Below the pieces are notes generated by a model that saw only the letters and a list, made by a program, of their open reading frames with translations, was not told the origin of the DNA and did no database searches. A stretch of 21,137 nucleotides of DNA, taken from the IMG/VR virus record IMGVR_UViG_3300042484_000680, positions 1 to 21,137 of that record, one strand, 5' to 3'. Numbering within the stretch: the first letter of the stretch is position 1; each line of letters opens with the position of its first letter. Position numbers and translations under genes: made by a program. Shown here piece by piece: positions 10,203 through 20,687 of this stretch. The stretch is from a virus.

Positions 10203-10231
10203 AGTATAGCACCAGTTCACCAATATGTCAA
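10203..10231 (-). promoter_or_regulatory. early sigma-70 promoter P1
   Basis: TTGACA (10226-10231), 17-bp spacer, TATACT (10203-10208), then the shared leader. The -35 contains the TGA stop of gene 10228-10485. Confidence 0.85.
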
Positions 10232-10485
10232 CTCAATACCACTACACGGCGTAGGGTTTCATCACGGATCTCTTCACCCGTTTCCTCATCAAACTCCACA
10301 TCGTACTGCTCTTCCATCAACTTGTCCATACGGTGGTAGTCACTGTATACCACACTGCCCACATCCACACGGCTCAACTTGGGAGCCACTTCTGTGCGCC
10401 AGTGGTCGCCATAGTTATAGGCAAAGTGTACGTCTGCTTCGGGATTCATCTCTGCCAACATCTCAATCAGTTCTTTAACTTGCAC
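10228..10485 (-). CDS. conserved early phage protein (FAYNYGDHWRT type)
   Basis: 85 residues: an N-terminal helix (MQVKELIEMLAEMNPEADV) followed by HFAYNYGDHWRTEVAPKLS and an acidic C-terminal part (EEQYDVEFDEETGEEIRDE). The GDHWRT segment is one I associate with a conserved uncharacterised protein of marine myoviruses. It has its own promoter at 10516-10544 and the standard leader. Its TGA stop is inside the -35 box of promoter P1, so its end and the next transcription unit are physically interlocked. Confidence 0.8.
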   Translation of the reverse strand: MQVKELIEMLAEMNPEADVHFAYNYGDHWRTEVAPKLSRVDVGSVVYSDYHRMDKLMEEQYDVEFDEETGEEIRDETLRRVVVLS

Positions 10486-10515
10486 AGCTCGCTCCTTTTG
10501 TTTAACTTAGCCTAT

Positions 10516-10544
10516 AGTATAGCACCATCTCACCAAAATGTCAA
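10516..10544 (-). promoter_or_regulatory. early sigma-70 promoter P2
   Basis: TTGACA (10539-10544), 17-bp spacer, TATACT (10516-10521), shared leader. The -35 contains the TGA stop of gene 10541-10735. Confidence 0.85.
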
Positions 10545-10735
10545 CTGATATCTACCACCCATTGTAGGCAATTGTTGTAAAAATTGTACTCGGCTCTGAG
10601 GCTGTCGCCGGGGAAGAATGGGTTGCTTACTATAGCATATGGAGCATCATCGTGATCCATCTTGAAGCTGTGAACATCCACTTCCCAGTTGCCTAGGTCT
10701 TGGGCAATGCCCGAATCAATAAAGTGTACGTTCAT
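10541..10735 (-). CDS. early hypothetical protein
   Basis: 64 residues (MNVHFIDSGIAQDLGNWEVD, later FFPGDSLRAEYNFYNNCLQW), acidic and aromatic, with no recognised motif. Its ATG overlaps the stop of the upstream gene (ATGA at 10732-10735), and its own stop lies in the -35 box of P2. It is third in the operon started by P3. Confidence 0.75.
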   Translation of the reverse strand: MNVHFIDSGIAQDLGNWEVDVHSFKMDHDDAPYAIVSNPFFPGDSLRAEYNFYNNCLQWVVDIS

Positions 10736-11106
10736 ACCCAGCTCTCCACCATTGGTATGGGCTTCTTCAAGACTCGTTTCACAAAGTCTTCGGGCTCATC
10801 ATCACAGCGTACTAACACGAATCCCATGCTCTCTACCAAGTCCACCTCACACACTTGGAGATCAATGTTAGCGGCTTCAAAGGCCACATTCATCTTGCTC
10901 AGTGCATACTTGACGCCTGCTTGGAAGGCCTCGTACTCGTGACTGCCTGTTTCTTCAAAGTCAAACTCTGTTTCCATAACATGAGCAAACTCTTGTCCAT
11001 CTGCTACGATGAACTTGTTGATCTTTTTCCAGTTGCTTTGCTTCTCACTGTCAAAGTGATCACAGCATTCGTTGATATCAAATGAGGCAAAATTGTCGTA
11101 GTTCAT
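10732..11106 (-). CDS. early hypothetical acidic protein
   Basis: 124 residues, strongly acidic (CCDHFDSEKQSNWKK, then METEFDFEETGSHEYEAFQ, CDDEPEDFVKRV). No membrane segment or catalytic motif is recognisable. Such acidic early proteins can act as DNA mimics or host-protein binders, but this is only a possibility. AAGGAGCCCTT precedes ATG; it is the second gene of the three-gene unit 11391-10541. Confidence 0.75.
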   Translation of the reverse strand: MNYDNFASFDINECCDHFDSEKQSNWKKINKFIVADGQEFAHVMETEFDFEETGSHEYEAFQAGVKYALSKMNVAFEAANIDLQVCEVDLVESMGFVLVRCDDEPEDFVKRVLKKPIPMVESWV

Positions 11107-11115
11107 AAGGGCTCC

Positions 11116-11391
11116 TTAAGCGGCTTCTAACATGTTAGCGGGAACACGCCACATACCTGCTGGGGTACGGACTGTTACATACTTAATGGCGATCTTAGTG
11201 ACATCGCCAACCATTGTCTGGCCAGTCTTGCTGGATGTGAACTTGACCATTTGACCTGGCTTGATCGAGTTCTTTACGTTTCGGGTCAGTTGGGATCTGT
11301 TCCACTTGACCGCATCAATCATGCTGGCTAGCTCTACGTTGGTCCATGTACCAAACATGATTGCACTATTAACTTCCTGGATTGTTTTCAT
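11116..11391 (-). CDS. conserved early phage protein with SH3-like C-terminus
   Basis: 91 residues. An N-terminal helical half (MKTIQEVNSAIMFGTWTNVE, then MIDAVKWNRSQLTRNVKNS) is followed by a beta-barrel-like half starting KPGQMVKFTSSKTGQTM and ending VRTPAGMWRVPANMLEAA. The 'GxxVKF ... G ... VxVRT..G.WRVP' pattern suggests an SH3/KOW-like nucleic-acid or protein binding fold. First gene after promoter P3 with the standard leader. Similar proteins occur in marine myoviruses without assigned function. Confidence 0.75.
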   Translation of the reverse strand: MKTIQEVNSAIMFGTWTNVELASMIDAVKWNRSQLTRNVKNSIKPGQMVKFTSSKTGQTMVGDVTKIAIKYVTVRTPAGMWRVPANMLEAA

Positions 11392-11421
11392 CGCTCGCTC
11401 CTTTTGTTTAACTTAACCTAT

Positions 11422-11450
11422 AGTATAGCGTCACTTTGTCGAATTGTCAA
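11422..11450 (-). promoter_or_regulatory. early sigma-70 promoter P3
   Basis: TTGACA (11445-11450), 17-bp spacer, TATACT (11422-11427), shared leader. The -35 and most of the spacer are coding sequence of gene 11431-11598 (GTT GAC read as Val-Asp). Confidence 0.85.
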
Positions 11451-11598
11451 CCGATTTCATTGCTTCTACTCCCCACCACATGATCAGCAGGCCAAAGAAG
11501 GCGTACCAAAGGATGGCGCTAATGGGAGCGGCATCATCTGCTCCTACAGCACTGGCCACCAGGACAAAGCCCAGCAACAGTCTCAACGAACCCTTCAT
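11431..11598 (-). CDS. small inner-membrane protein (two helices)
   Basis: 55 residues from ATG 11598, chosen because it forms an ATGA overlap with the preceding gene and has GGGAG upstream. A longer open frame to 11646 would sit wholly inside that gene. Two hydrophobic stretches are visible: LRLLLGFVLVASAVG (about residues 5-19) and SAILWYAFFGLLIMWWG (about 27-43). The first may be a signal anchor. Its last six codons (V-D-N-S-T-K) overlap promoter P3. Small early membrane proteins in phages often act on superinfection exclusion or envelope proteins; this is inference. Confidence 0.7.
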   Translation of the reverse strand: MKGSLRLLLGFVLVASAVGADDAAPISAILWYAFFGLLIMWWGVEAMKSVDNSTK

Positions 11599-11972
11599 AC
11601 AGTCTCCCGACGAAAGTAACCATATGGCAGGCCAATCAAGTAGCACAAGTACTCGTCATCACCGTTGCTACCTTCTGCTTCGTGTATCCAACGCAGGGCC
11701 ATCTCACGAGTCTTAGCACCCGTTTGCTGTAGGCTAAGGATCCGCATTTCAAAGTCGTGTTGGGCACGCTCTTCAGATTCTTTACGGATGCGATCTTCTT
11801 CGGCAATGGTCACGCTCAACTGGAAGAACTCACGCTCAAAGTCTTCTTCTGTCCAGGCGCTTGTATCAATACCACGTGGGCGAACGCCGTAGGCATCCTT
11901 GTACATGTCCCAGTAGGTGCAAGCATACTGCTCCAACACTGTCATCTCTTCCCACGTTTTGAAATCTTCCAT
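11595..11972 (-). CDS. early hypothetical protein
   Basis: 125 residues, rich in charged residues and aromatic pairs (MEDFKTWEEMTVLEQYACTY, later FFQLSVTIAEEDRIRKESEE, about residues 50-69). A probable long helix covers 60-90. No motif recognised. It is first after promoter P4, ATTGCCGCTCC giving GGAGCGGCA before ATG, and it is coupled to the small membrane protein by ATGA. Confidence 0.75.
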   Translation of the reverse strand: MEDFKTWEEMTVLEQYACTYWDMYKDAYGVRPRGIDTSAWTEEDFEREFFQLSVTIAEEDRIRKESEERAQHDFEMRILSLQQTGAKTREMALRWIHEAEGSNGDDEYLCYLIGLPYGYFRRETV

Positions 11973-12001
11973 TGCCGCTCCTTTTGTTTAACTTAGCCTA
12001 T

Positions 12002-12030
12002 AGTATAGCACCGGTCAACCAAAATGTCAA
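12002..12030 (-). promoter_or_regulatory. early sigma-70 promoter P4
   Basis: TTGACA (12025-12030), 17-bp spacer, TATACT (12002-12007), shared leader. The -35 contains the TGA stop of gene 12027-12272. Confidence 0.85.
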
Positions 12031-12272
12031 CCTAATGCTTTGTATAACCCTACTAGCCCTATGGCTAATGATACGATGTTGACCATTGCCTGTGGCTTGT
12101 TCTTAACCCTAAAGGCCCATGTAAGGAACAAGACTGTACCCACAGCAAAGGTTAAGATGTTGTAGGGATATACAGCTGGGCCCATGGCATTGAGCACGTG
12201 GCCCGCTACAATGAAGCCTGCTCCGGACCATTGTAGGGATTCGTCTATTGTTCGTTGTGTTAACATGTTCAT
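12027..12272 (-). CDS. small multi-pass membrane protein
   Basis: 81 residues (or 79 if the third-codon ATG is used). Three hydrophobic helices: WSGAGFIVAGHVLNAMG (about 15-31), YNILTFAVGTVLFLTWAF (about 37-54) and MVNIVSLAIGLVGLYKAL (about 63-80). The repeated small-residue pattern and three-helix layout resemble SemiSWEET-like or other half-transporter folds, but identity cannot be claimed. Promoter P5 lies just upstream with a non-standard leader. Its TGA stop is in the -35 of P4. Confidence 0.7.
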   Translation of the reverse strand: MNMLTQRTIDESLQWSGAGFIVAGHVLNAMGPAVYPYNILTFAVGTVLFLTWAFRVKNKPQAMVNIVSLAIGLVGLYKALG

Positions 12273-12291
12273 TCGCTTTCTTAGTGTTTAT

Positions 12292-12320
12292 AGTATAGCA
12301 CCATCTGCTCGAAATGTCAA
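12292..12320 (-). promoter_or_regulatory. early sigma-70 promoter P5
   Basis: TTGACA (12315-12320), 17-bp spacer, TATACT (12292-12297). Leader differs from the shared one. A terminator ends directly before the -35. Confidence 0.85.
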
Positions 12321-12346
12321 CCAAAAAGATGTTGTATTTTTACAAC
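12321..12346 (-). terminator. terminator after tRNA gene
   Basis: On the minus strand GTTGTA (12341-12346) pairs with TACAAC (12331-12336) around a 4-base A loop, followed by ATCTTTTTGG. It ends the tRNA-containing transcript immediately before promoter P5. Confidence 0.7.
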
Positions 12347-12349
12347 GGT

Positions 12350-12427
12350 TGGTGGGCCCCCCGTGAGTCGAACACGGCACCAATGGATTATGAGTCCACT
12401 GCTCTAACCAACATGAGCTAGGGGCCC
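12350..12427 (-). tRNA. tRNA-Met(CAT), or Ile after C34 modification
   Basis: A complete cloverleaf on the minus strand. Acceptor stem GGGCCCC (12421-12427) pairs with GGGGCCC (12354-12360); discriminator A and CCA are encoded (12350-12353). The D arm is GCTC...GAGC, the anticodon loop CTCATAA reads CAT, and the T arm is CCGTG-TTCGACT-CACGG (12361-12377). It has none of the three consecutive G-C pairs in the anticodon stem typical of initiators, so it is elongator Met or the CAT-anticodon Ile tRNA; sequence alone cannot decide. It lies 6 bases after gene 12434-12622 and shares that transcript. Confidence 0.93.
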
Positions 12428-12433
12428 GGTAAT

Positions 12434-12622
12434 CTATTTAATACGTTCTATCTCAACAAGTTCGCCTTCTTGATCTTCTGCGTAGACTATGCACTCGACA
12501 TAGTAGTCAGTTAGATTAGCTTCTGCGATTGCCCGAGCTTCTTTCAAGCTCTTTGTGGTATCGATCAAGTCTTCGTGTCCATCTTCATCAACGGACCAAA
12601 CCTCGTACAATTCCCAGTTCAT
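12434..12622 (-). CDS. small early protein
   Basis: 62 residues (MNWELYEVWSVDEDGHEDLI, then KSLKEARAIAEANLTDYY, ending ELVEIERIK). Beta-strand, then one amphipathic helix, then beta, as in small alpha/beta domains. It begins downstream of the hairpin at 12641-12664 and has only a weak GAGAA ribosome-binding site. The tRNA gene follows after 6 bases. No known family recognised with confidence. Confidence 0.7.
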   Translation of the reverse strand: MNWELYEVWSVDEDGHEDLIDTTKSLKEARAIAEANLTDYYVECIVYAEDQEGELVEIERIK

Positions 12623-12640
12623 TTAGTTCTCTATAAGTTA

Positions 12641-12664
12641 AACAAGGGCACATAGGCCCTTGTT
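12641..12664 (-). terminator. intergenic hairpin, partial terminator or processing site
   Basis: Perfect 9-bp stem AACAAGGGC/GCCCTTGTT with a 6-base loop, followed on the minus strand only by TAACTTATAG. With no U-run it more likely attenuates or marks RNA processing between gene 12681-13034 and the downstream gene plus tRNA. Confidence 0.5.
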
Positions 12665-12680
12665 GGTTGTCACGCCAGGA

Positions 12681-13034
12681 TTAGAACGGAGCGTCTTCAT
12701 CCTCAGTAACTTTGGCACGAGCCTTAACTGGCGCCTTGGCAACTGTCTTCTTAGTTGCTGTGGGAGTTGACACTGGGTTAGTGCGGGGAGTGTTGCGCTC
12801 CACATACTCCACGATAGTAGCTTGTGCCACAACGTCCTGGAACTCGTCCAAGGCCTTAAGGGCAATAGCTGCCTCCATCTTGCTTACGGGCTCGTCCAGT
12901 TCTGCCAAACGGATGTCTGTGTGTCCACCCTTTGTAAGTACTTTGATACGCATGATATCATTTGCAAAGCGAACCTTGTACTCGCCGTCTTTCTTAGAAA
13001 TACCAACTACCTTGAAAAGTTTATCTGTAGCCAT
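12681..13034 (-). CDS. early protein with SSB-like acidic C-terminal tail
   Basis: 117 residues. The N-terminal domain (MATDKLFKVVGISKKDGEYK, then VRFANDIMRIKVLTKGGHTD) resembles a conserved uncharacterised family of T4-like marine phages. After residue about 85 comes a Pro/Ala/Lys/Thr-rich linker (TPTATKKTVAKAPVKARAK), then the last seven residues EDEDAPF. This closely resembles the bacterial SSB tip DDDIPF, the docking peptide for host repair and replication proteins. Domain plus flexible linker plus acidic PF tip is the SSB layout, but an OB fold cannot be asserted from sequence alone. Promoter P6 drives it. Confidence 0.75.
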   Translation of the reverse strand: MATDKLFKVVGISKKDGEYKVRFANDIMRIKVLTKGGHTDIRLAELDEPVSKMEAAIALKALDEFQDVVAQATIVEYVERNTPRTNPVSTPTATKKTVAKAPVKARAKVTEDEDAPF

Positions 13035-13093
13035 TGTGTGTGCCTCTTTCTGTGTTTAAAAATAACGTTAGGACCTTCCCAACGTATGCATTA

Positions 13094-13122
13094 ATTATAC
13101 TATCGTTTCGGTTTGATGTCAA
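13094..13122 (-). promoter_or_regulatory. early sigma-70 promoter P6
   Basis: TTGACA (13117-13122), 17-bp spacer, TATAAT (13094-13099): consensus at all twelve positions. The -35 and spacer are coding for gene 13100-13363, whose TAG stop abuts the -10. Confidence 0.85.
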
Positions 13123-13363
13123 CCGTTTTCCTACCTTTTTGAGCAACCTTTTTGGGACGCTCAAACTCACTTTGGACATAATGAGCGATCAAACATCGCT
13201 GGATCATTGTGACCAAATCGCCGTGATCTTCAGGGACCACAAACCTTACAGGGCAAGCACCCCATGAGCTTGTCTTAACGAATTGATAATACCAACGACG
13301 ATGATCCTTGTTAGCGGGATCAAAGATCGTATAGGGCCTGCCAAAAAGTTCTAAACGGCTCAT
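13100..13363 (-). CDS. conserved early phage protein (LFGRPYxIFDP type)
   Basis: 87 residues: MSRLELFGRPYTIFDPANKD, then HRRWYYQFVKTSSWGACPVRF and a basic C-terminus (ERPKKVAQKGRKTVDIKPKR). The pattern 'LFGRPxxIFDPxNxxHRRWY ... WGxCPVRF' is one I recall from uncharacterised proteins of marine and freshwater T4-like phages. The basic tail could contact nucleic acid. ATG overlaps the stop of the 43-residue gene upstream (AAATGA). The final codons double as promoter P6, whose -35 reads as Val-Asp. Confidence 0.8.
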   Translation of the reverse strand: MSRLELFGRPYTIFDPANKDHRRWYYQFVKTSSWGACPVRFVVPEDHGDLVTMIQRCLIAHYVQSEFERPKKVAQKGRKTVDIKPKR

Positions 13364-13491
13364 TTATTTCCAGTGATCCACTGCCGGATCACAGCCTCCA
13401 GAGGTTGCCAATTGTAAGTAGGGCCTTTTGGCCGCACCCGCACCTTCTGCTTGGCATCAAACTCTTGATTCTTTTCTTTATTTGTTTTCAT
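13360..13491 (-). CDS. very small basic protein (43 aa)
   Basis: Frame MKTNKEKNQEFDAKQKVRVR followed by PKGPTYNWQPLEAVIRQW and ITGNK. It starts inside the end of the Api92-like gene (14-base overlap) and ends by an ATGA-type overlap with gene 13100-13363. AGAAGAAGAAG lies upstream of the ATG. The junctions on both sides and a coding-like composition support it. Function unknown. Confidence 0.6.
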   Translation of the reverse strand: MKTNKEKNQEFDAKQKVRVRPKGPTYNWQPLEAVIRQWITGNK

Positions 13492-14065
13492 CTTCTTCTT
13501 CTGCCTCCTCGGCTTCGTATTCGGCTATCGTTTCCGATATCCCAAACATCTCATCGAGCTCAGAAGGAATTTCTTCTGCTACTTGATCAGACGTCATACT
13601 ACCCAAGTCGTGATAGTCATCATGACCATCTTCATATATGCCAGCAAAGGCCATACCCGGTTCGTAGTAATAAAGGCGCACTGAGAATCCCAATGCTTCA
13701 AACTTGTCCATGGCCGTAGTAGGAGGAGCCCACGCACTGTCAAAACTCATTGTGATCTTGTTAGGCGTTTCTTGAATGGGTTCGTTGTAGTCATTGCCAC
13801 CAACATCCCATTTGGTTCCCCACTCGTTCACACAATAGTCATACCAGTTGCCATACCCGTGGACAGCAAGGTTACGGGCAGTGTCCTCTTCCAACTTCTT
13901 CTGCTCGTCACCGTCACCAACCCTGCCTGCTACAATATGCAGGCTCTCTGGCACTGGACAGAACTCGTCCAACAGTCTACCATCTGCAAAGGCTTTCTTA
14001 GCCCGCTCAATCATTGCTGGGTCTTCGTGGGCCAGTTCCAATGTGTTGTTGCACCAATTAGGCAT
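13478..14065 (-). CDS. Api92/DUF1281-like phage protein
   Basis: 195 residues. The N-terminus MPNWCNNTLEL is the signature of the Api92-like/DUF1281 family found in many phages and plasmids; WAPP and the aromatic 'F ... LYYYEPGMAFAGIYEDG' (about residues 115-146) are further family-like features. The family has a ferredoxin-like C-terminal domain and no established function. The last 35 residues are extremely acidic (EAEEAEEEDENK). AAGGAGCCCTT precedes ATG. It is second in the operon from promoter P7 and is followed with overlap by the 43-residue gene. Confidence 0.85.
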   Translation of the reverse strand: MPNWCNNTLELAHEDPAMIERAKKAFADGRLLDEFCPVPESLHIVAGRVGDGDEQKKLEEDTARNLAVHGYGNWYDYCVNEWGTKWDVGGNDYNEPIQETPNKITMSFDSAWAPPTTAMDKFEALGFSVRLYYYEPGMAFAGIYEDGHDDYHDLGSMTSDQVAEEIPSELDEMFGISETIAEYEAEEAEEEDENK

Positions 14066-14074
14066 AAGGGCTCC

Positions 14075-14338
14075 TTAGTTGAATTCGTAAAAGGTTACTG
14101 AAGAATCAATGCTCTGCAACTCCTGTGCCGCACGGGTCAGCATCTTGTAGCGAGCTTGAACTTGACTGCGTGGCAGCTCACCATCGCATGTGAGGTTCTC
14201 TGGGCTAAGGTCACTGTCAATGCTGTCCGCAATCTTTTGACGATCCGTTGCACTCAACAGGCTCAGTGGCTTATTCCCAAACAGTTTGCCCCAACTGTTC
14301 TTTTTTTCTACATACTGCTCTAGTGTGCTAATGTTCAT
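14075..14338 (-). CDS. early hypothetical protein
   Basis: 87 residues, mainly helical (MNISTLEQYVEKKNSWGKLF, then LLSATDRQKIADSIDSDL, and YKMLTRAAQELQSIDSS). No motif or membrane segment is visible. It is first after promoter P7, with the shared leader variant ending AAAAGGAGCAG. The downstream Api92-like gene starts 9 bases after its stop. Confidence 0.75.
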   Translation of the reverse strand: MNISTLEQYVEKKNSWGKLFGNKPLSLLSATDRQKIADSIDSDLSPENLTCDGELPRSQVQARYKMLTRAAQELQSIDSSVTFYEFN

Positions 14339-14367
14339 CTCTGCTCCTTTTATTTAACTTAACCTAT

Positions 14368-14396
14368 AGTATAGCGTCACTCAACCAAAATGTCAA
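14368..14396 (-). promoter_or_regulatory. early sigma-70 promoter P7
   Basis: TTGACA (14391-14396), 17-bp spacer, TATACT (14368-14373), shared leader variant. The TAA stop of gene 14400-14624 lies 3 bases upstream. Confidence 0.85.
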
Positions 14397-14399
14397 CCG

Positions 14400-14624
14400 T
14401 TATGCGTAGAAACTTGTTGTAAATCCACAACGGCTATAGATCATTTCACGCACTGCGGTGTCGTTGATTTCACCGTACTGATCTCGCTTTTGGTCACCAA
14501 TGAACCGCATAATGCTCATTGTCTGCTTCCAGTCAAGTCCGGCAGCTTGGGCCAGCTCCACTACCTTCTGTGCTACCACTTCACCTTGATCGGTGAACAT
14601 GGCAAAGTCGTTTACATCATTCAT
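14400..14624 (-). CDS. early hypothetical protein
   Basis: 74 residues: MNDVNDFAMFTDQGEVVAQK, then VVELAQAAGLDWKQTMSIMRF and a C-terminal part with one Cys (YSRCGFTTSFYA). Helical, no recognised motif. AAGGAGCAAGC precedes ATG, and the ATG overlaps the stop of the Cys-rich gene upstream (ATGC/ATGA region at 14621-14624), so the two are coupled. Confidence 0.75.
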   Translation of the reverse strand: MNDVNDFAMFTDQGEVVAQKVVELAQAAGLDWKQTMSIMRFIGDQKRDQYGEINDTAVREMIYSRCGFTTSFYA

Positions 14625-14890
14625 GCTTGCTCCTTAAAAACTACCATTTGCATTTTGTTACGGGCGCGGTCTTCTACGAAGGCATAGTTACTTTCAAACT
14701 CTACATTGGGATTGGACAAGATCTTCTTAGCAATGATCCTAACACTGCGTTCGTTGACGCTATCCGTTACATCGTAGCCTGGGCCGTGATTCTTGGCACC
14801 GTCGGCTGTATATGAATACTTGCCGTTGCATCCGCACATACAACCGCAACGGCCGTTGTATACCTTTACAATCCGATCCACATTCAACAT
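14621..14890 (-). CDS. conserved early protein with CGCMCGCNGKY motif
   Basis: 89 residues. A cysteine cluster near the N-terminus (C15, C17, C19, C21 in GRCGCMCGCNGKYSY) could bind a metal such as zinc or iron. The later KILSNPNVEFESNYAFVE and the C-terminal MQMVVF segment look like an alpha/beta domain. Related 'GC.CGC.GKY' proteins are common in T4-like marine phages without known function. First gene behind promoter P8 with the standard leader. Confidence 0.8.
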   Translation of the reverse strand: MLNVDRIVKVYNGRCGCMCGCNGKYSYTADGAKNHGPGYDVTDSVNERSVRIIAKKILSNPNVEFESNYAFVEDRARNKMQMVVFKEQA

Positions 14891-14919
14891 ACTCGCTCCT
14901 TTTGTTTAACTTAGCCTAT

Positions 14920-14948
14920 AGTATAGCACCAATCCGAACCTTTGTCAA
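14920..14948 (-). promoter_or_regulatory. early sigma-70 promoter P8
   Basis: TTGACA (14943-14948), 17-bp spacer, TATACT (14920-14925), shared leader. The -35 contains the TGA stop of gene 14945-15151. Confidence 0.85.
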
Positions 14949-15151
14949 TCGATCCAGCAATCCCTGGCCAACTGTGTGGTTATTGTATCTCCACCAATGT
15001 AGTCGCCTGAGAACCCGCTCAAGTTCTCCAAGATCAGGGACACACCCATATAGCTAGACTTGATGTCTACAATCTTACCCGACTGCTCTATGTCTGACTT
15101 GAAGCCTACCCAGTCACCAATGTTAACTGTCTGTCCTTCTACTGTGGCCAT
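14945..15151 (-). CDS. early hypothetical protein, small beta-barrel
   Basis: 68 residues: MATVEGQTVNIGDWVGFKSD, then IEQSGKIVDIKSSYMGVSLIL. 'GDWVGFK ... GKIVDI' is typical of small SH3-like or KOW-like barrels. A single gene between promoters P9 and P8. Ribosome-binding site AAAAGGAGCGCGATATG. Its stop lies within the -35 of P8. Confidence 0.75.
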   Translation of the reverse strand: MATVEGQTVNIGDWVGFKSDIEQSGKIVDIKSSYMGVSLILENLSGFSGDYIGGDTITTQLARDCWID

Positions 15152-15181
15152 ATCGCGCTCCTTTTGTTTAACTTAGCCTAT

Positions 15182-15210
15182 AGTATAGCACCACTCAACC
15201 AATTTGTCAA
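15182..15210 (-). promoter_or_regulatory. early sigma-70 promoter P9
   Basis: TTGACA (15205-15210), 17-bp spacer, TATACT (15182-15187), shared leader; drives gene 14945-15151. Confidence 0.85.
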
Positions 15211-15226
15211 GTGTGCTATAATAACC

Positions 15227-15439
15227 CTACTCCGTGTAAGTGTATCCTGCTTCGCCTGCAAGCGCACAATCCCGCCATTCGTCAAAGCAATCTTCTGCGT
15301 ACTCAGGTTCCCAAATAAGTATCTCGTCACAGCTCGCAATCGCTTTGCCTCTCTGTAGTGTAACCTTTACAGTGCTTCCGCTAGCGTGTTCGCTAGTGTA
15401 ATACCCTGCCGCTTCTATGTTTACTACTTTTACCTTCAT
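15227..15439 (-). CDS. early hypothetical protein
   Basis: 70 residues from ATG 15439 (an in-frame GTG two codons earlier lies in the ribosome-binding site AAGGAGTGCAT, so ATG is the better start). MKVKVVNIEAAGYYTSEHAS opens a beta-rich part, then LQRGKAIASCDEILIWEPEY and an acidic C-terminus. No family recognised. Promoter P10 has a non-standard leader. The start context AGGAGTGCATATG is identical to that of gene 19780-20010. Confidence 0.75.
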   Translation of the reverse strand: MKVKVVNIEAAGYYTSEHASGSTVKVTLQRGKAIASCDEILIWEPEYAEDCFDEWRDCALAGEAGYTYTE

Positions 15440-15465
15440 ATGCACTCCTTATTGTCTATACTGTA

Positions 15466-15494
15466 AGTATAACACAGGTTCACCAAAATGTCAA
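15466..15494 (-). promoter_or_regulatory. early sigma-70 promoter P10
   Basis: TTGACA (15489-15494), 17-bp spacer, TATACT (15466-15471). A strong terminator ends immediately upstream. Leader is not the shared one. Confidence 0.85.
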
Positions 15495-15525
15495 CCAAAA
15501 AAAAGCCCGGGGAGCGAATCCGGGC
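15495..15525 (-). terminator. strong terminator of the AAA+ ATPase gene
   Basis: On the minus strand GCCCGG (15520-15525) pairs with CCGGGC (15505-15510) around a 9-base loop, followed by eight T residues (15497-15504). The best intrinsic terminator in the window. Confidence 0.85.
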
Positions 15526-15526
15526 C

Positions 15527-15552
15527 CTAAAAACCCTACATCGGGTTTTTAG
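15527..15552. terminator. second hairpin of a tandem terminator
   Basis: Perfect 10-bp inverted repeat CTAAAAACCC (15527-15536) and GGGTTTTTAG (15543-15552) with a 6-base loop, one base from the strong terminator. Because its arms contain A5/T5 it can end in a U-run on either strand. Confidence 0.6.
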
Positions 15553-15584
15553 ACTTGTGGCTTAGCCTTCTGGGAGCGAATCAG

Positions 15585-16475
15585 TTAACCTCGGCGCATA
15601 CAAGTCATCTCTGCAATGCCAGTCCAGCGGTCAGGGAACCCTGCTTTGAGATCCGCCAGCTTGAGCACCATACGTAGGCTGAGTTCTCTCAGCTTCTTCT
15701 TGTTTTGATCAATAAAGTCCAGGAGCTCTTCTTTTGCACCCGGCTCAAACTCATACTTGTCCAGCATGCCGTCTTCAACGATCTGCTTAATGCGCAAAAC
15801 CTTCTCACGCTCTGTGTCAATGGTAAGGTCAAGGTAGTGACAGCGTGACTCCAATGCCTCAAGGTGATCACGGAGCTTCTTGCTCTTAACGTTTTCGAAT
15901 TTGATGTTGGTGATAAAGATAGCACCGCCTTTGAACTCAAAGCTGTCAGGCACACCTTCACGACGCAACATGTGCGAGTCTGTGTTCCAGTGGATCATAC
16001 GCTTTGATCCACTGTCCAATGCTGCCTTGAGAATGTTAAGGGAGAGGTCGTCCAACAGCACGGAGTCACAGTCATCAAACACAAGGATGTTCTTGGCATC
16101 GCTGTACTGATAGAGCTTGCTGTACAGTCCCAGCGCACTCATAGCACCCTTGACCACTTCGTACTTCTTCAGCTTCTCATTGCCAGCAATATTAGCCATC
16201 ATGTCATGCTTGCCCAGTACAGCTTCTACACCGTGGCTCTTGCCTACGCCTGGAGGTCCGGATACGATCATGGCACGTACAGCACCCTTCTTCACAGCAC
16301 GGGTCATGTCGTCTAGGATGTTGAAACGCTCACGCAAGCGGCCCATAATCTGTTCGTCGCTCTCGTTGAGAATCTTCTCAACCTTGTCCATCTCTAGACT
16401 TTTGACTTCGCCCTTAGAGGCCTTCTTCGCTGTAGTCATCTCCGCCATCATCTCCATAGTTACAACTCTCGCCAT
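15585..16475 (-). CDS. AAA+ ATPase (CobS/MoxR-like)
   Basis: 296 residues, one AAA+ module. Walker A GPPGVGKS at 73-80, Walker B ILVFDDCD at 130-137, a sensor-1 Asn in FITN at 187-190, and after it LRDHLEALESRCHYLDL with an arginine that could be the finger (R211). The C-terminal part is a helical lid. The N-terminal 60 residues are a helical extension. T4-like marine phages often carry such a gene, commonly annotated CobS-like because of similarity to the cobaltochelatase ATPase subunit; its true partner is unknown. It is alone behind promoter P11 and closed by a tandem terminator, so it is expressed as a single-gene transcript, the most insulated gene of the early block. Confidence 0.85.
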   Translation of the reverse strand: MARVVTMEMMAEMTTAKKASKGEVKSLEMDKVEKILNESDEQIMGRLRERFNILDDMTRAVKKGAVRAMIVSGPPGVGKSHGVEAVLGKHDMMANIAGNEKLKKYEVVKGAMSALGLYSKLYQYSDAKNILVFDDCDSVLLDDLSLNILKAALDSGSKRMIHWNTDSHMLRREGVPDSFEFKGGAIFITNIKFENVKSKKLRDHLEALESRCHYLDLTIDTEREKVLRIKQIVEDGMLDKYEFEPGAKEELLDFIDQNKKKLRELSLRMVLKLADLKAGFPDRWTGIAEMTCMRRG

Positions 16476-16503
16476 TTGTCGCTCCTAACTTGTTTAAAAA
16501 TTA

Positions 16504-16532
16504 ATTATACAGCCTTTTCGCTGTTTTGTCAA
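16504..16532 (-). promoter_or_regulatory. early sigma-70 promoter P11
   Basis: TTGACA (16527-16532), 17-bp spacer, TATAAT (16504-16509): full consensus. The -35 contains the TGA stop of gene 16529-16672. Own leader, AGGAGC before ATG. Confidence 0.85.
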
Positions 16533-16672
16533 TAGTTTTCCATCAAGCTTCGAATGTTTTCTTTACCATATTGAGCGGCCACTTGGCACTCGGCAAAGTA
16601 CTTATTCTCAGCCTGAACAGTTACGCTCAGTAGAGTGCCATTGACTTCAACGACTGCTCTCCATGTTTGCAT
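16529..16672 (-). CDS. very small early protein (47 aa)
   Basis: Frame MQTWRAVVEVNGTLLSVTVQ followed by AENKYFAECQVAAQYGKE and NIRSLMENY. It starts by TAATG overlap with the previous gene and ends with TGA inside the -35 box of P11. The beta-beta-helix order 'WRAVVEV.G.L..VTVQA.N.Y.A...' resembles conserved tiny proteins of marine phages. Both junctions support it. Function unknown. Confidence 0.7.
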   Translation of the reverse strand: MQTWRAVVEVNGTLLSVTVQAENKYFAECQVAAQYGKENIRSLMENY

Positions 16673-17148
16673 TATGCTTCTTCCTTAACTGTAGCAAGGG
16701 CTTCTGTCAATGGCACAAGCTTCTTGTAGAAACGCTCGTCCTTCTCATAGATATTGCCCACATACCAAACACCATCACGCATGATGTAGTACCACTCGCA
16801 CCACGAGCCTTCAACCTCTGCAAAGAAGTCTACGAAGTTGGTATGGGTCTTCCACTCTGCACCCGTCTCGCCACGGTCACGTCCGTAGAAGGTGCACATG
16901 CCACCATACTGCTTTTCAAATTCTTCTGAGGTAAGTTCGTCACAATCAAATGGACTGAACTTGTGCTTCTCACCAATGTTGGGGCGCAGGCTGCTCAAGT
17001 CACCCAGTGCCACCAGTTGATTAGCCTTCACGCTGTCATAGTGCTCTTGGAGGATAGCTCCATTGTGCTCTAGATAGCCATCCCAGTGACAATATACGCT
17101 CTTGACATTGTCTCCGTGCATTACGCCAATTCTGCTTCGTGTTCCCAT
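16672..17148 (-). CDS. conserved phage protein (MGTRSRIGV type)
   Basis: 158 residues. It opens MGTRSRIGVMHGDNVKSVYC and continues HWDGYLEHNGAILQEHYDS, a pattern found in a widespread uncharacterised family of phage and bacterial proteins ('RSxIG ... VYCHWDGYPEHNG ... L ... Y'). Later parts are rich in aromatic residues (WCEWYYIMRDGVWYVGN). No catalytic motif is known. First after promoter P12 with the shared leader and AAAAGGAGCGCGAT before ATG; followed with one-base overlap by the 47-residue gene. Immediately upstream lies the structured RNA candidate. Confidence 0.85.
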   Translation of the reverse strand: MGTRSRIGVMHGDNVKSVYCHWDGYLEHNGAILQEHYDSVKANQLVALGDLSSLRPNIGEKHKFSPFDCDELTSEEFEKQYGGMCTFYGRDRGETGAEWKTHTNFVDFFAEVEGSWCEWYYIMRDGVWYVGNIYEKDERFYKKLVPLTEALATVKEEA

Positions 17149-17178
17149 ATCGCGCTCCTTTTGTTTAACTTAGCCTAT

Positions 17179-17207
17179 AGTATAGCACCACTCAACCAAT
17201 TTGTCAA
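17179..17207 (-). promoter_or_regulatory. early sigma-70 promoter P12
   Basis: TTGACA (17202-17207), 17-bp spacer, TATACT (17179-17184), shared leader. The -35 lies 4 bases after the end of the long RNA helix. Confidence 0.85.
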
Positions 17208-17209
17208 CC

Positions 17210-17519
17210 TAGTTAGGAAAGAACTAGAGGAACATGTAGTCTGCCCAAGGGACCGTCTCCGTCAAGGGCTTGTACCGTCATTACTTCCTACATTGTCCGC
17301 CGCTTCTCCAGAGCTCGCGCTCCTATTTCATGACCTGGACTAGACCAACATCCGTCGACATTGTCGTCTTCCCAGAGCCCTAGCGGTGTAGGTAACCTCT
17401 AACTCTTTCCTAACAAGATTAGGCCGAGTCTCCAAACTCGCTTCGTATCCCTTGGTTACAACCCTTTTTGCATTACTGCTGGGTTCTTACATTTGAGGAT
17501 CGCCTTTATCTTCTAACTT
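17210..17519 (-). ncRNA. candidate structured RNA (about 310 nt)
   Basis: A gene-free stretch with its own consensus promoter (P13). No plausible frame exists in the transcribed direction; the first ATG is followed directly by TAA. A 19-bp helix pairs 17396-17414 with 17212-17230; its two DNA mismatches become G-U and U-G in the minus-strand RNA, but A-C in the plus strand. Nested inside, 17383-17392 pairs with 17287-17292 and 17297-17300 (10 bp with a 4-base bulge). Smaller hairpins are at 17243-17269, at 17311-17322 (GAGC-GCGA-GCTC, a GNRA tetraloop), at 17425-17440 (5 bp) and at 17460-17485 (5 bp with an inner 3-bp stem). No intrinsic terminator is seen, so the RNA may be processed. Boundaries are approximate; no known RNA class is recognised. 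Confidence 0.7.
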
Positions 17520-17525
17520 AAATCA

Positions 17526-17554
17526 ATTATAACGCCACTTCGTTACTTTGTCAA
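17526..17554 (-). promoter_or_regulatory. early sigma-70 promoter P13 (for the structured RNA)
   Basis: TTGACA (17549-17554), 17-bp spacer, TATAAT (17526-17531): full consensus. The -35 is read in frame as Leu-Thr in the last codons of gene 17543-17773. No gene with a ribosome-binding site follows. Confidence 0.85.
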
Positions 17555-17773
17555 CTTGAACCTATCAATAACCATGTTAGCTTCAGGGTATTTGTTTTGC
17601 TCCAACAGCTCTTCAAATGTCTCCAAAACCACTAGACGCTGTAGGCTCTCTGCTTCAAACCTATCTGCTTTGGACAGCGTGTCCATCCATTGTTCCAACT
17701 CTGTGAACTCTTCGATGGCCCACATGGTGTCCAGGAGCTCTACCTGGTGCTCTGTCAGTCCTTCTAGTTTCAT
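17543..17773 (-). CDS. conserved early phage protein (LTEHQxELLDxMW type)
   Basis: 76 residues: MKLEGLTEHQVELLDTMWAI, then EEFTELEQWMDTLSKADRFE, ending EANMVIDRFKLTK. All-helical and acidic. The pattern 'LTEHQ..LLD.MW ... EFEEW...L...D ... L.ELI..E......EA..VL..F.L' is a well-conserved but uncharacterised family in T4-like cyanophages and other marine myoviruses. GGAGCAGAGCT precedes ATG. Second gene of the unit from promoter P14. Its last four codons overlap promoter P13. Confidence 0.82.
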   Translation of the reverse strand: MKLEGLTEHQVELLDTMWAIEEFTELEQWMDTLSKADRFEAESLQRLVVLETFEELLEQNKYPEANMVIDRFKLTK

Positions 17774-17784
17774 AGCTCTGCTCC

Positions 17785-17982
17785 TTAACTTGCGAATACG
17801 TCTTTGCTCAGGATCTCGTCTTCAACCACCTGGTTACAGGCATTGAGCGTGAGCATGACAAAGTGGGTTGCCAGTGCTCGCTCTGCACCCGACAGCTTCT
17901 GTAGACTGGCCTGCAGGTCTTCTAGACTGTAGGTTGCCCACATACCGCTACGGGGGATTGGGTTTTGAACTATATCATACAT
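17785..17982 (-). CDS. early hypothetical protein
   Basis: 65 residues: MYDIVQNPIPRSGMWATYSL, then EDLQASLQKLSGAERALATH, ending SKDVFAS. The C-terminal two thirds are helical. First gene behind promoter P14, with AAAAGGAGC 8 bases before ATG. No motif recognised. The following gene starts 11 bases past its stop. Confidence 0.75.
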   Translation of the reverse strand: MYDIVQNPIPRSGMWATYSLEDLQASLQKLSGAERALATHFVMLTLNACNQVVEDEILSKDVFAS

Positions 17983-18014
17983 AAGTGTCGCTCCTTTTGT
18001 TTAACTTAACCTAT

Positions 18015-18043
18015 AGTATAACGTCACTCAACCAAAATGTCAA
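18015..18043 (-). promoter_or_regulatory. early sigma-70 promoter P14
   Basis: TTGACA (18038-18043), 17-bp spacer, TATACT (read here as TATACT at 18015-18020), shared leader variant. The -35 contains the TGA stop of gene 18040-18207. Confidence 0.85.
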
Positions 18044-18207
18044 GCCCCATTGTAGGGGCTGAACTCTTCCTGTTGCGTTTCTGCAACACCCTGTTCGGTC
18101 AGCCAATCATAGACGAACGACACTGGGCACTCCAGTTGGGTTGCAATCTCCCGGGGGCTCAACCCGTCAATGTAGAGCTGTTCAATATCATATGCTAGTT
18201 CACTCAT
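18040..18207 (-). CDS. small helix-turn-helix protein (55 aa)
   Basis: MSELAYDIEQLYIDGLSPRE then IATQLECPVSFVYDWLTEQG and an acidic tail ending FSPYNGA. Residues about 6-40 read as a helix-turn-helix: 'I..LY..G.S..EIA..L......V..WL', the layout of transposase/sigma-like or resolvase-like HTH domains. Similar tiny proteins are widespread in T4-like marine phages. The start overlaps the previous gene by 8 bases (ATGAGTGA), and its TGA stop is inside the -35 of P14. A role as a small DNA-binding regulator is plausible but unproven. Confidence 0.8.
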   Translation of the reverse strand: MSELAYDIEQLYIDGLSPREIATQLECPVSFVYDWLTEQGVAETQQEEFSPYNGA

Positions 18208-18415
18208 CAAAGGCCTCCTCGCCCATTTCAGTTACAGTTTCAGTTACCACGCCCAAGTCAACGATGCGGGCTGTTTGATCTTCGTTGCTTACACCTTGGA
18301 AGGCTGTACGGAACGATTGGTTCTCTGCTAGGAAGTCAAACACATCAAAGCGATCCCACGACTCAGGCACTTCAAGCTCTTGTGTCAATACAGTTTCAAC
18401 GATGACCTTCTTCAT
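18200..18415 (-). CDS. early hypothetical acidic protein
   Basis: 71 residues from ATG 18415: MKKVIVETVLTQELEVPESW, then DRFDVFDFLAENQSFRTAF, ending EMGEEAFDE. I chose this start because AAAGGAGC, the standard early ribosome-binding site, lies just upstream. A longer frame from ATG 18472 is also open, forms an ATGA overlap with the GP88-like gene and has GGAGG before it, so a 90-residue form is possible. One beta strand followed by an acidic helical region; function unknown. Confidence 0.7.
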   Translation of the reverse strand: MKKVIVETVLTQELEVPESWDRFDVFDFLAENQSFRTAFQGVSNEDQTARIVDLGVVTETVTEMGEEAFDE

Positions 18416-18468
18416 ACCCTGCTCCTTTAGTTTATCCGCCGCACTCATTTTCTTACTACGAAAGCCTG

Positions 18469-19170
18469 TCATGCTACCTCCGCCACACGGATTACGAAGC
18501 CCGAGTAGTCTTTCTTTGCACGACCCTTAGCCTTAAGTCCAAGCATGATGCCTTTGGGATCCAGGAAGCGCAGGTCAGTTTCGTCTGCACTGGGCACACC
18601 CGCTGGGATCTGATCGTAGACAGCAACCACGCTCATGCCTTGGAACAGGGCTTCTGCTACATCGCTGTCGTTGCCGTCAGCTTTGGAGAAGGTCAAGTGG
18701 TAGTTCTTAAGGTGCTTGACCTTACGACCCAAGACCTTAGTGTAGTCATAGAACTGAACATAGTCAAACAATTCAAAGATGTTCTTGCCATGAGCCGCTT
18801 CGTACTTCTCCCAGCTAAGGTCACTCGTACCGTTTAAGCGGAACACGGGGGTCAAACCCTGCTTGGCTGCGAACTTGATAGCCTTATTAATGTCGCTAAC
18901 CAAGTCAGCCATAAAGCCAGCACGATCATTGAAGAAGTATTCTGTCTTGCGGATACGAGCCTTTTGGATCATGTTCGTGTTCTCACCACGTTTGAACATA
19001 CCACCACGCCCGGCAGTATTAAGGCATGCGGCAGTGCAACCCGCTGTTCGCTTGGGGCAGGTCTCACGACCGCTCAAGTCTGCTGGGGCAAGGTGTAGGA
19101 TGAAGCTGAGGTAGCCCATCTTAGTACCCTTTTGGATCTTGGGGTTCGCTGTACTTAATAGTTTAAACAT
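18469..19170 (-). CDS. GP88-like phage protein
   Basis: 233 residues. The N-terminal part carries the cysteine motif ETCPKRTAGCTAACLNTAGR (C38, C45, C49 near residues 36-55) that marks the 'Gene product 88' family known from mycobacteriophages and many other phages. A domain of TIM-barrel-like alternation follows (FRLNGTSDLSWEKYE, then FYDYTKVLGRK, YHLTFSKADGND and VVAVYD). The cysteines could ligate a metal or iron-sulfur cluster, which is inference. No enzymatic activity is established for the family. Promoter P15 drives it with AAGGAGCGAACC before ATG. Likely cotranscribed with the two small genes downstream. Confidence 0.8.
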   Translation of the reverse strand: MFKLLSTANPKIQKGTKMGYLSFILHLAPADLSGRETCPKRTAGCTAACLNTAGRGGMFKRGENTNMIQKARIRKTEYFFNDRAGFMADLVSDINKAIKFAAKQGLTPVFRLNGTSDLSWEKYEAAHGKNIFELFDYVQFYDYTKVLGRKVKHLKNYHLTFSKADGNDSDVAEALFQGMSVVAVYDQIPAGVPSADETDLRFLDPKGIMLGLKAKGRAKKDYSGFVIRVAEVA

Positions 19171-19202
19171 GGTTCGCTCCTTGTTTGTCTGTGTAAGTGT
19201 AT

Positions 19203-19231
19203 ATTATAGCATCAATCCACGTAATAGTCAA
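19203..19231 (-). promoter_or_regulatory. early sigma-70 promoter P15
   Basis: TTGACT (19226-19231), 17-bp spacer, TATAAT (19203-19208). The only -35 that deviates. It lies within gene 19212-19367, its GTT GAC read as Val-Asp. Confidence 0.8.
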
Positions 19232-19367
19232 CCGCTTCTGTCAGCGTACCCAATGCACTCGTAACCTCTTCAAAGCACGTCATCTCTGCCAAAGGATCGC
19301 CATCCAGAGTTGCCTTCGCCAGCAATTCTTCTACTTCCGCCAGCTTGGCCAAAATCTCATCACGCAT
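19212..19367 (-). CDS. very small early protein (51 aa)
   Basis: MRDEILAKLAEVEELLAKAT, then LDGDPLAEMTCFEEVTSALG and TLTEAVDYYVD. Acidic, mostly helical with leucine heptads in the first 17 residues. Promoter P16 and the shared leader with AAAAGGAGTGAGCG precede its ATG. Its last codons are promoter P15. Too small to assign; the strong promoter and ribosome-binding site make it credible. Confidence 0.75.
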   Translation of the reverse strand: MRDEILAKLAEVEELLAKATLDGDPLAEMTCFEEVTSALGTLTEAVDYYVD

Positions 19368-19397
19368 CGCTCACTCCTTTTGTTTAACTTAGCCTAT

Positions 19398-19426
19398 AGT
19401 ATAGCACCAGTTCTCCAAACTGTCAA
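19398..19426 (-). promoter_or_regulatory. early sigma-70 promoter P16
   Basis: TTGACA (19421-19426), 17-bp spacer, TATACT (19398-19403), shared leader. Confidence 0.85.
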
Positions 19427-19462
19427 GCCGCCGTTGAAGAGACCTGACAGCTTGGAAGGGTA

Positions 19463-19726
19463 TTACATGCTCCAGTAGGCTTCGCTTGAAGGGCTACAAT
19501 AGCGCGGAGTGTCATAGCGTTCCGTGTACTCTTTGCCACCCATCATGTTGGTCCGCTTGACATAAGTCTCGTGGATCTCATAGCGGAAGCCCTGGCTTGC
19601 TCTGTAGGTATGCTTAACCGTGTGTTCAAGCATAGACTTCTCCGTTACTTCATAGTCCGTCTTGCTGACCAGTCGCTCGCCTGCCTTAGTCCGCTTGTCC
19701 GTTTTGTAGATTTCAACTGTATACAT
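19463..19726 (-). CDS. early hypothetical basic protein
   Basis: 87 residues: MYTVEIYKTDKRTKAGERLV, then SKTDYEVTEKSMLEHTVKHT and a Tyr/Arg/Glu-rich C-terminal half (FRYEIHETYVKRTNMMGG). Beta-rich and basic, with no recognised family. The start has AAAGGAGCGCGAT upstream. Promoter P17 with a non-standard leader drives it as a single gene. Confidence 0.75.
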   Translation of the reverse strand: MYTVEIYKTDKRTKAGERLVSKTDYEVTEKSMLEHTVKHTYRASQGFRYEIHETYVKRTNMMGGKEYTERYDTPRYCSPSSEAYWSM

Positions 19727-19754
19727 ATCGCGCTCCTTTAGTGTTTAAGTGTAT

Positions 19755-19783
19755 AGTATAACACCAATCCGAACCTTTGTCAA
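19755..19783 (-). promoter_or_regulatory. early sigma-70 promoter P17
   Basis: TTGACA (19778-19783), 17-bp spacer, TATACT (19755-19760). The -35 contains the TGA stop of gene 19780-20010. Own leader. Confidence 0.85.
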
Positions 19784-20010
19784 TCCCAGCACTTCTTGCC
19801 GCCGTATTGCTCGTTCCAATTGTAGCCCGCCGTATAGGCCACTATCTCATCCGCTGTCATATCAGCCAGTTCAACACGGCTACCACTATCACCGCCCACT
19901 CCGCCATAGTGGGGATTGAAAGGACGGCTGTACCAACTGTCTGCTGAGCCACGATCAAATGGTGTACCATGGCTCGTATCAAATCGCTCTCGTATGTCTT
20001 CTGCTATCAT
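19780..20010 (-). CDS. conserved early phage protein (SHGTPFDRGSADSWY type)
   Basis: 76 residues from ATG 20010. A GTG two codons earlier overlaps the ribosome-binding site AGGAGTGCAT, so ATG is preferred. MIAEDIRERFDTSHGTPFDR is followed by GSADSWYSRPFNPHYGG, then MTADEIVAYTAGYNWNEQYG. The combination of 'TSHGxPFDRGSADSxY' with 'MTxxEIxxYxxGY' is a pattern I recall from small uncharacterised proteins of phages and enterobacterial prophages. Its ribosome-binding site overlaps the stop of the GIY-YIG gene. Its stop lies in the -35 of P17. Confidence 0.8.
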   Translation of the reverse strand: MIAEDIRERFDTSHGTPFDRGSADSWYSRPFNPHYGGVGGDSGSRVELADMTADEIVAYTAGYNWNEQYGGKKCWD

Positions 20011-20018
20011 ATGCACTC

Positions 20019-20354
20019 CTATAAGTATTGATCATTCAATGTGGGCTCCGCCATCTTGACCAGCTCGCGCTCGTAAGCATAAGCTTCAGCACGGCCACGC
20101 ACGATAGCTAGGATATTGTGCGTCCAGCCCAAGTCCAGACCGCCAGTCTTCAAGTATACATAGAGCGCCCATGTACGGTTCTCGTTACGAGCACGGCTCT
20201 TATGCTTGCGCCACCGCTCTAACACCGCTTTAACCGGGGTCACATTGCCCTTGCGGGTAAGTCCGATATATGAGTCCCCAAGCTCGCTAGTCATCTCGTA
20301 TATGACATAGGAGCTGTCCTTGCGTGGGGTTCTGCGTGTCTTTGTTTCCATCAT
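20019..20354 (-). CDS. GIY-YIG nuclease-domain protein
   Basis: 111 residues from ATG 20354 (or the adjacent ATG 20351). The GIY-YIG core is visible: YVIY at 16-19 in place of GIY, SYIGLT at 28-33, RWRKH with R48 in the following helix, E95 in YAYEREL, and a terminal LND with the Asn near 107. A stand-alone single domain, like the Seg-type free-standing endonucleases of T4, which cut DNA to mobilise themselves or exclude related phages. The -10 TATAAT ends 6 bases before the ATG and there is no ribosome-binding site, so the message is probably leaderless. A longer frame to 20402 is open but merely translates the promoter. Confidence 0.75.
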   Translation of the reverse strand: MMETKTRRTPRKDSSYVIYEMTSELGDSYIGLTRKGNVTPVKAVLERWRKHKSRARNENRTWALYVYLKTGGLDLGWTHNILAIVRGRAEAYAYERELVKMAEPTLNDQYL

Positions 20355-20360
20355 ATCATA

Positions 20361-20389
20361 ATTATAGCAAAGGTTCACCAAAATGTCAA
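20361..20389 (-). promoter_or_regulatory. early sigma-70 promoter P18
   Basis: TTGACA (20384-20389), 17-bp spacer, TATAAT (20361-20366): full consensus. The predicted start coincides with the A of ATG 20354. Confidence 0.85.
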
Positions 20390-20413
20390 GTGCAGACCGC
20401 ACTCGACCTGTTG

Positions 20414-20563
20414 TTAAAATACAACGTCGTCTAGCTCGCAGGCTAGTGCATTAAATGCATTTTGCAAAGGCTCGTGCTCGTCTAAACCCGCTTGGTCCAA
20501 CAAGTCTTGTAACTGTAGCATTAAACTGTCGATTTTGCGCTTAAGAGTTTGTGCGTCTGACAT
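20414..20563 (-). CDS. very small early protein (49 aa)
   Basis: MSDAQTLKRKIDSLMLQLQD, then LLDQAGLDEHEPLQNAFNAL and ACELDDVVF. Helical with leucines spaced as in a short coiled coil, and acidic at the end. ATG 20563 has AAAGGAAATAAAG upstream and promoter P19 22 bases before it. A longer frame to 20620 simply reads through the promoter. First gene transcribed leftward in the early block. No family recognised. Confidence 0.75.
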   Translation of the reverse strand: MSDAQTLKRKIDSLMLQLQDLLDQAGLDEHEPLQNAFNALACELDDVVF

Positions 20564-20584
20564 CTTTATTTCCTTTAAAAATGT

Positions 20585-20613
20585 ATTATAGCGCAAGTTC
20601 ACCAAAATGTCAA
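20585..20613 (-). promoter_or_regulatory. early sigma-70 promoter P19
   Basis: TTGACA (20608-20613), 17-bp spacer, TATAAT (20585-20590): full consensus. The rightmost leftward early promoter. Confidence 0.85.
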
Positions 20614-20658
20614 GGACCAAATAATACCCACACAGCCGTCATGGGTTCGTCACGCCGG

Positions 20659-20687
20659 TTGACAAATGGGCAAAATGACGCTATAAT
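20659..20687 (+). promoter_or_regulatory. rightward early sigma-70 promoter P20
   Basis: TTGACA (20659-20664), 17-bp spacer, TATAAT (20682-20687): full consensus and the only plus-strand copy. It diverges from P19 with 45 bases between the -35 boxes. No gene follows within the window. Confidence 0.85.

Follow-up and report, generated by a model that had tools for sequence, protein, structure and literature searches.

The window analyzed here is a virus record of 21,137 bases from IMG/VR, and it contains a gap of about 300 bases that was examined mainly on the minus strand. On this strand, the gap lies behind a sigma-70-type promoter (TTGACA-N17-TATAAT; 17554-17526), which agrees with the consensus at 12 of 12 positions, as a previous sequence-only reading of the window had stated, and whose -35 box shares bases with the 3' end of the preceding gene (17773-17543). 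A second minus-strand promoter (TTGACA-N17-TATACT, 11/12 positions; 17207-17179) precedes the next gene (16672-17148). Between both promoters there is no credible gene on the minus strand, and the only open reading frame covering the gap (17086-17343, plus strand) reads the promoter repeat backwards. The region 10203-20687 contains 19 near-consensus promoters (TTGACA-N17-TATAMT), 18 of them on the minus strand, with a chance expectation of 0.04, and due to this abundance roughly one promoter per small gene is the local style of the window.

The sequence-only reading had proposed a single structured RNA for this gap. When relatives of the gap were located via their flanking proteins, its left and right parts were found apart from each other, and therefore the gap holds two RNAs in tandem and not one: RNA A (17506-17421) and RNA B (17414-17212), both on the minus strand and both predicted to belong to a transcript initiated at the promoter 17554-17526. 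The proposal of a structured RNA was thus correct, that of one RNA was not, as RNA A had been overlooked and all helices described previously lie in RNA B.

RNA B comprises about 203 nt. The 5' strand of its helix P1 (minus-strand 17414-17396, GUUAGGAAAGAGUUAGAGG) pairs with the 3' strand (17230-17212, CCUCUAGUUCUUUCCUAAC) in 17 Watson-Crick pairs, one G-U and one U-G pair, and the two wobble positions are A-C when read on the plus strand; the 19-position outer helix of the sequence-only reading, with wobbles in the minus-strand sense only, is therefore present to the base. The bulged inner helix described before also exists and corresponds to P2, in which CCUACA and CCGC of the 5' strand (17392-17383) pair with 17292-17287 and 17300-17297, respectively, of the 3' strand GCGG-ACAA-UGUAGG (17300-17287). 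Hairpin P3 (17375-17335) carries a CGACGG loop, and hairpin P4 (17325-17308) includes the previously noted GNRA stem (17322-17311, GAGC-GCGA-GCUC), with a cap that is GCGA here and GCAA or GUAA in relatives, and with one pair that alternates between A-U, G-C and C-G. The arm P5 (P5a/P5b; 17277-17233) with its AGACG loop is shortened in the subfamily of the window. In the consensus, P1 is followed by UUA, P2 (CCUAnA-CCGy), a junction with the hairpins P3 and P4 split by AUGAA, the second half of P2 (GCGG-nnA-UnUAGG), AGUAAUGA, the arm P5 and the second strand of P1; UUA, AUGAA and AGUAAUGA are the invariant unpaired stretches. The 16S rRNA 3' end was also considered as a complement of GGUUACCU, but this idea was dropped because most of GGUUACCU is paired in P1 and P2.

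Folding of 17212-17414 yielded -74.1 kcal/mol for the minus strand (z -3.3), and none of 200 shuffled sequences reached an energy as low, while -59.0 kcal/mol were obtained for the plus strand (z -2.0), with 6 of 200 shuffles as low. This asymmetry between strands is real, and folding energy by itself is modest evidence; a z of only -3.3 would still be compatible with a chance fold or the relic of a gene. That explanation is refuted by the compensatory changes found across about 110 contigs, which leave it a negligible probability.

These contigs were obtained by searching the IMG/VR viral collection with one motif per RNA and later with two more motifs for RNA B. A covariance model (R1) was built from a 15-sequence structure with 48 pairs; its match to the window (17402-17224, 152.2 bits, E 1.8e-39) holds by construction, as the window copy sits in the R1 seed. 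R1 finds RNA B in contigs that had been fetched for RNA A alone and in nearly all viral contigs holding the second motif variant, and misses L224, whose motif lies 75 bases from the contig end. With a motif taken from the opposite half of RNA B, 49 stretches were retrieved, 47 of them known members, and the remaining two also match the model. RNA B is therefore a family, present in about 110 phage contigs of IMG/VR from freshwater. Cellular homologues were considered as well and rejected, as R1 detected RNA B in 0 of 18 bacterial or archaeal contigs, which share a 19-base motif by chance.

In an alignment of 15 sequences made with MAFFT without the model, 19 pairs are changed on both sides, and RNAalifold recovers the same helices unaided. 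The larger alignments were made with the covariance model and, in contrast to the first 15 sequences, which were aligned independently of it, are biased towards its structure: with 28 sequences, 39 of 48 pairs are changed on both sides and 94.2% of the cells are paired (75.5% in shuffled and 33-42% in slid controls); with 49 sequences, the values are 37 pairs and 94.0% (75.1% shuffled), and with 54 sequences 39 pairs and 93.8% (73.7% shuffled). In most copies P1 extends by 13-20 pairs beyond the model, and there its sequence is wholly replaced between groups and still helical (GCTATATTAAAATGTATTAAAGG with CCTTTAGTATTTTTTAATATAGT; ATTCATATGTAAATGTATTATAGG with CCTATAGTATTTTTACATATGAAT). Judged from these alignments, compensatory changes in RNA B are overwhelming and lie far above the shuffled and slid controls. 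Structure and sense strand of RNA B are thus established, and the minus-strand structured RNA of the sequence-only reading is borne out by folding and by changes in relatives (15-54 sequences) that keep pairing in the same helices. Loops and helix lengths differ among relatives through indels of all sizes, and no conserved reading frame was found in them.

At the gathering threshold, Rfam 15 gave no plausible match for the window and seven relatives, and at E values up to 10 the window segment 17100-17600 and the copies from L150 and L230 produced chance matches only (for example Pinc and microRNAs). The Rfam families not matched by RNA B include riboswitches, RNase P, tmRNA, group I/II introns and 6S RNA as well as the GOLLD, ROOL, OLE, HEARO, SRP and rRNA models. 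Similarly, neither ARAGORN nor Rfam indicated a tRNA or tmRNA in 17200-17520, in agreement with the earlier statement that the RNA is no tRNA, tmRNA, RNase P or group I intron. When the gap and other RNA B copies were compared with isolated phages (INPHARED) by BLAST, only tRNA-Asp or chance matches were returned. No account of RNA B was encountered in literature searched for structured RNAs and tRNA arrays in huge phages, although a large-scale survey, such as that of Fremin, Bhatt and Kyrpides (2023) on candidate structured RNAs of viruses, may list the motif unnamed.

These results bear on the possibility that RNA B is a mimic of a host RNA, as considered in the sequence-only reading, or a decoy that sequesters a host protein, either of which would be a particular form of trans action. 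A protein-binding RNA might be expected to have a compact and conserved core of this type, with invariant motifs that are single-stranded; however, neither an Rfam match (RNase P, 6S, SRP, tmRNA and rRNA included) nor a cellular homologue among the 18 pattern matches was found, and we regard mimicry, unsupported as it is, as very improbable.

RNA B shares with GOLLD and ROOL the setting of a non-coding phage RNA near tRNA islands. GOLLD is a phage or prophage RNA of unknown function, often near such islands, but it is elaborate, in many cases longer than 800 nt, and assembles into a 14-mer cage, whereas RNA B has about 200 nt and a much simpler fold (PMC12286853). ROOL, likewise a phage or prophage RNA near tRNA islands and of unknown function, is a nanocage of 659 nt with multiple pseudoknots in the form studied (PMC12286853), and RNA B does not match its model. 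No conserved palindromic kissing loop for self-assembly was found in RNA B, loop L5b being GACGU in some copies and GACGG in others. RNAC and RNAD of T4 (species 1 and 2 stable RNAs; NC_000866, 70908-71046 and 71053-71171) are located beside a tRNA cluster, as RNA B often is, and are small stable RNAs expressed during infection whose function is unknown (PMC9697503). They measure 139 and 119 nt, respectively, compared to about 200 nt for RNA B, and a homology to them was rejected, since the RNA B model R3, applied to T4 70908-71171 with filters off, reached at best 4.3 bits, which is chance level. An RNA-seq-annotated lncRNA is known from the nearest group of isolated jumbo phages, ncRNA004 of PA5oct (L276; MK797984, 246116-246734), but it has 619 nt and matches the models of neither RNA B nor RNA A. 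By model search, RNA B is a new family that is unrelated to GOLLD, ROOL and T4 RNAC/RNAD and shares only the broad setting with them.

Each of 14 contigs of 111-383 kb contains exactly one RNA B, and of 15 further contigs all but one have a single copy as well, the exception having two in tandem (28/29 single in total). Carriers include contigs of more than 340 kb, which are distant relatives of Pseudomonas phage PA5oct, and several carriers are related to the window by their replicative helicase (56-80%). Among isolates, PA5oct-like Pseudomonas phages (Arenbergviridae) come closest, with 53-55% in the replicative helicase. However, neither R1 nor R3 matched anywhere in PA5oct, and RNA B is also missing from Paride and was not matched in the 345-kb relative G019. 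Therefore, at the level of model matches, RNA B appears as an accessory element, dispensable for some phages of the group.

RNA A is a second unlisted, pseudoknotted RNA of 86 nt (17506-17421, minus strand) that is matched by its model R2 with 114.6 bits, the window copy being part of the R2 seed. According to the alignment of 23 relatives it consists of P1 (17505-17502/17424-17421), P2 (17500-17496/17451-17447), P3 with a GNRA-like cap (17490-17481/17464-17455), P4 (17440-17436/17429-17425) and a kissing pseudoknot (17454-17452/17435-17433). Among these 23 distinct but close relatives, 98.2% of the cells are paired and 7 pairs are changed on both sides; in the pseudoknot, a loop-junction pairing, a double change from C-G (17 sequences) to U-A (5 sequences) converts CCAA/UUGG to CUAA/UUAG. 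From this alignment, RNA A is judged to be real and independently conserved, but it is supported less deeply than RNA B. Four large contigs contain one copy each, and the model found no match in PA5oct or Paride. In the copies tabulated, a promoter is located immediately upstream of RNA A, and its right neighbour varies, being RNA B in some phages and a promoter, a gene or other RNAs elsewhere. Other long-helix stretches replace RNA B after RNA A in L003 (3583-3891; also in L004 and L005) and in L087 (about 2710-2800), and the one in L003 stands before a tRNA-Asp; these stretches are probably further RNA genes.

RNA B copies stand either behind a promoter of their own and before many unrelated genes, or within phage tRNA arrays. 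Where a promoter flanks the copy, the distance from the end of the -10 box to the model start follows the length of P1, with 24-25 nt for a long P1 and 15-18 nt for a short one, and the predicted transcription start is therefore close to the P1 foot in both cases. More than 10 unrelated genes come after RNA B copies, mostly with their own promoter, and this promoter often lies within a few bases of the RNA B end. In L134, L152, L183, L170, L239 and L260 the 3' strand of P5 contains or adjoins the -35 box (TTGACA) that belongs to the next promoter, and for this reason some letter changes at the overlapping P5 pairs may be due to the promoter and not to the RNA.

In the window, RNA B is placed between a promoter and the gene 16672-17148, for which the sequence-only reading had considered it a possible large leader, and since no terminator was found after RNA B in the window sequence, some read-through into this gene would be possible. 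However, the promoter at 17207-17179 starts 5 bases past the end of RNA B and parts it from the gene, as a promoter does in most promoter-flanked relatives. Furthermore, L003-L005 keep the gene (82% identical protein) without RNA B and have RNA A, structured stretches and tRNA-Asp there. The intervening promoter, the arrangement in L003-L005 and the diversity of following genes together rule out a dedicated leader of 16672-17148. With no constant link to one gene family and many copies that lead into tRNAs, without a gene nearby, RNA B is independent of any single gene, and it is quite improbable that RNA B, or RNA A and B together, acts in cis as a leader or riboswitch for whatever gene lies downstream.

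A same-strand tRNA is found within 450 nt downstream in 38 of 76 distinct RNA B copies. It is tRNA-Asp(GUC) in 24 and tRNA-Glu(UUC) in 8 of the 38, although Asp(GUC) accounts for only 38 of 540 tRNAs overall; as these copies are related by descent, the association with tRNA-Asp represents few independent events. P1 often ends 1-8 nt ahead of the following tRNA, which suggests that the cut freeing this tRNA may also end RNA B. In arrays, copies are found in stretches with 10-31 tRNAs, and their downstream neighbours are tRNA-Asp, -Glu, -Leu or -Ser. A cis-acting function of RNA A or RNA B, in antitermination through tRNA arrays or in the cutting of tRNA precursors, might explain why RNA B occurs just upstream of tRNA-Asp, -Glu, -Leu or -Ser, and RNA A, which starts the transcript, resembles in this respect put-type RNA antiterminators, RNA elements located at the transcript start. 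However, about half of the distinct RNA B copies lack a tRNA within 450 nt downstream, many promoter-flanked copies meet the next promoter at once, so that no stretch is left for processing or read-through, and RNA A is often found directly before a promoter or gene. We therefore consider such a role unlikely.

Instead, RNA B is likely a trans-acting phage RNA, the product of an RNA gene rather than a piece of an mRNA, processed with tRNAs or like them; this is the best supported of the three guesses made in the sequence-only reading. Its 5' end would be formed either by a promoter that starts transcription at the P1 foot or by processing from a longer precursor, here the A-B transcript and in other phages the tRNA array. 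The 3' end would arise by processing at P1 or by the cut releasing the 5' end of a tRNA a few bases downstream. The RNA would then fold compactly, with P1 closing a junction to P2, which bears P3 and P4, and to the arm P5. We infer that RNA B is transcribed, processed and stable, and that it acts in trans on a partner, the likeliest target being the infected cell's machinery for translation or RNA processing, for the sole reason that RNA B keeps company with phage tRNAs. The chances seem evenly balanced for the wider reading that RNA B represents a new class of RNAs of about 200 nt from large and jumbo phages, which is associated with tRNA arrays and targets translation or RNA processing in trans while the host is being taken over, and which one clade combines with a second new RNA, pseudoknotted and 86 nt long, at the start of transcripts.

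Phages with hundreds of genes thus harbour noncoding RNAs that are invisible to annotation pipelines; here, a 300-base gap led to two RNA families with consensus structures and working covariance models, and to about 110 examples of the larger one. RNA B offers a smaller and simpler RNA for testing the role of the RNAs of phage tRNA clusters, from T4 RNAC/RNAD to GOLLD and ROOL, and its conserved core (UUA, AUGAA and AGUAAUGA) points to the bases for mutagenesis.

Two further observations concern individual contigs. ARAGORN calls permuted tmRNAs in the tRNA arrays of L212 (6233-6631) and L217 (3059-3603), which may be false positives. In L262, two tandem, diverged copies of RNA B (94-282 and 320-513, minus strand) are located ahead of a tRNA-Asp.
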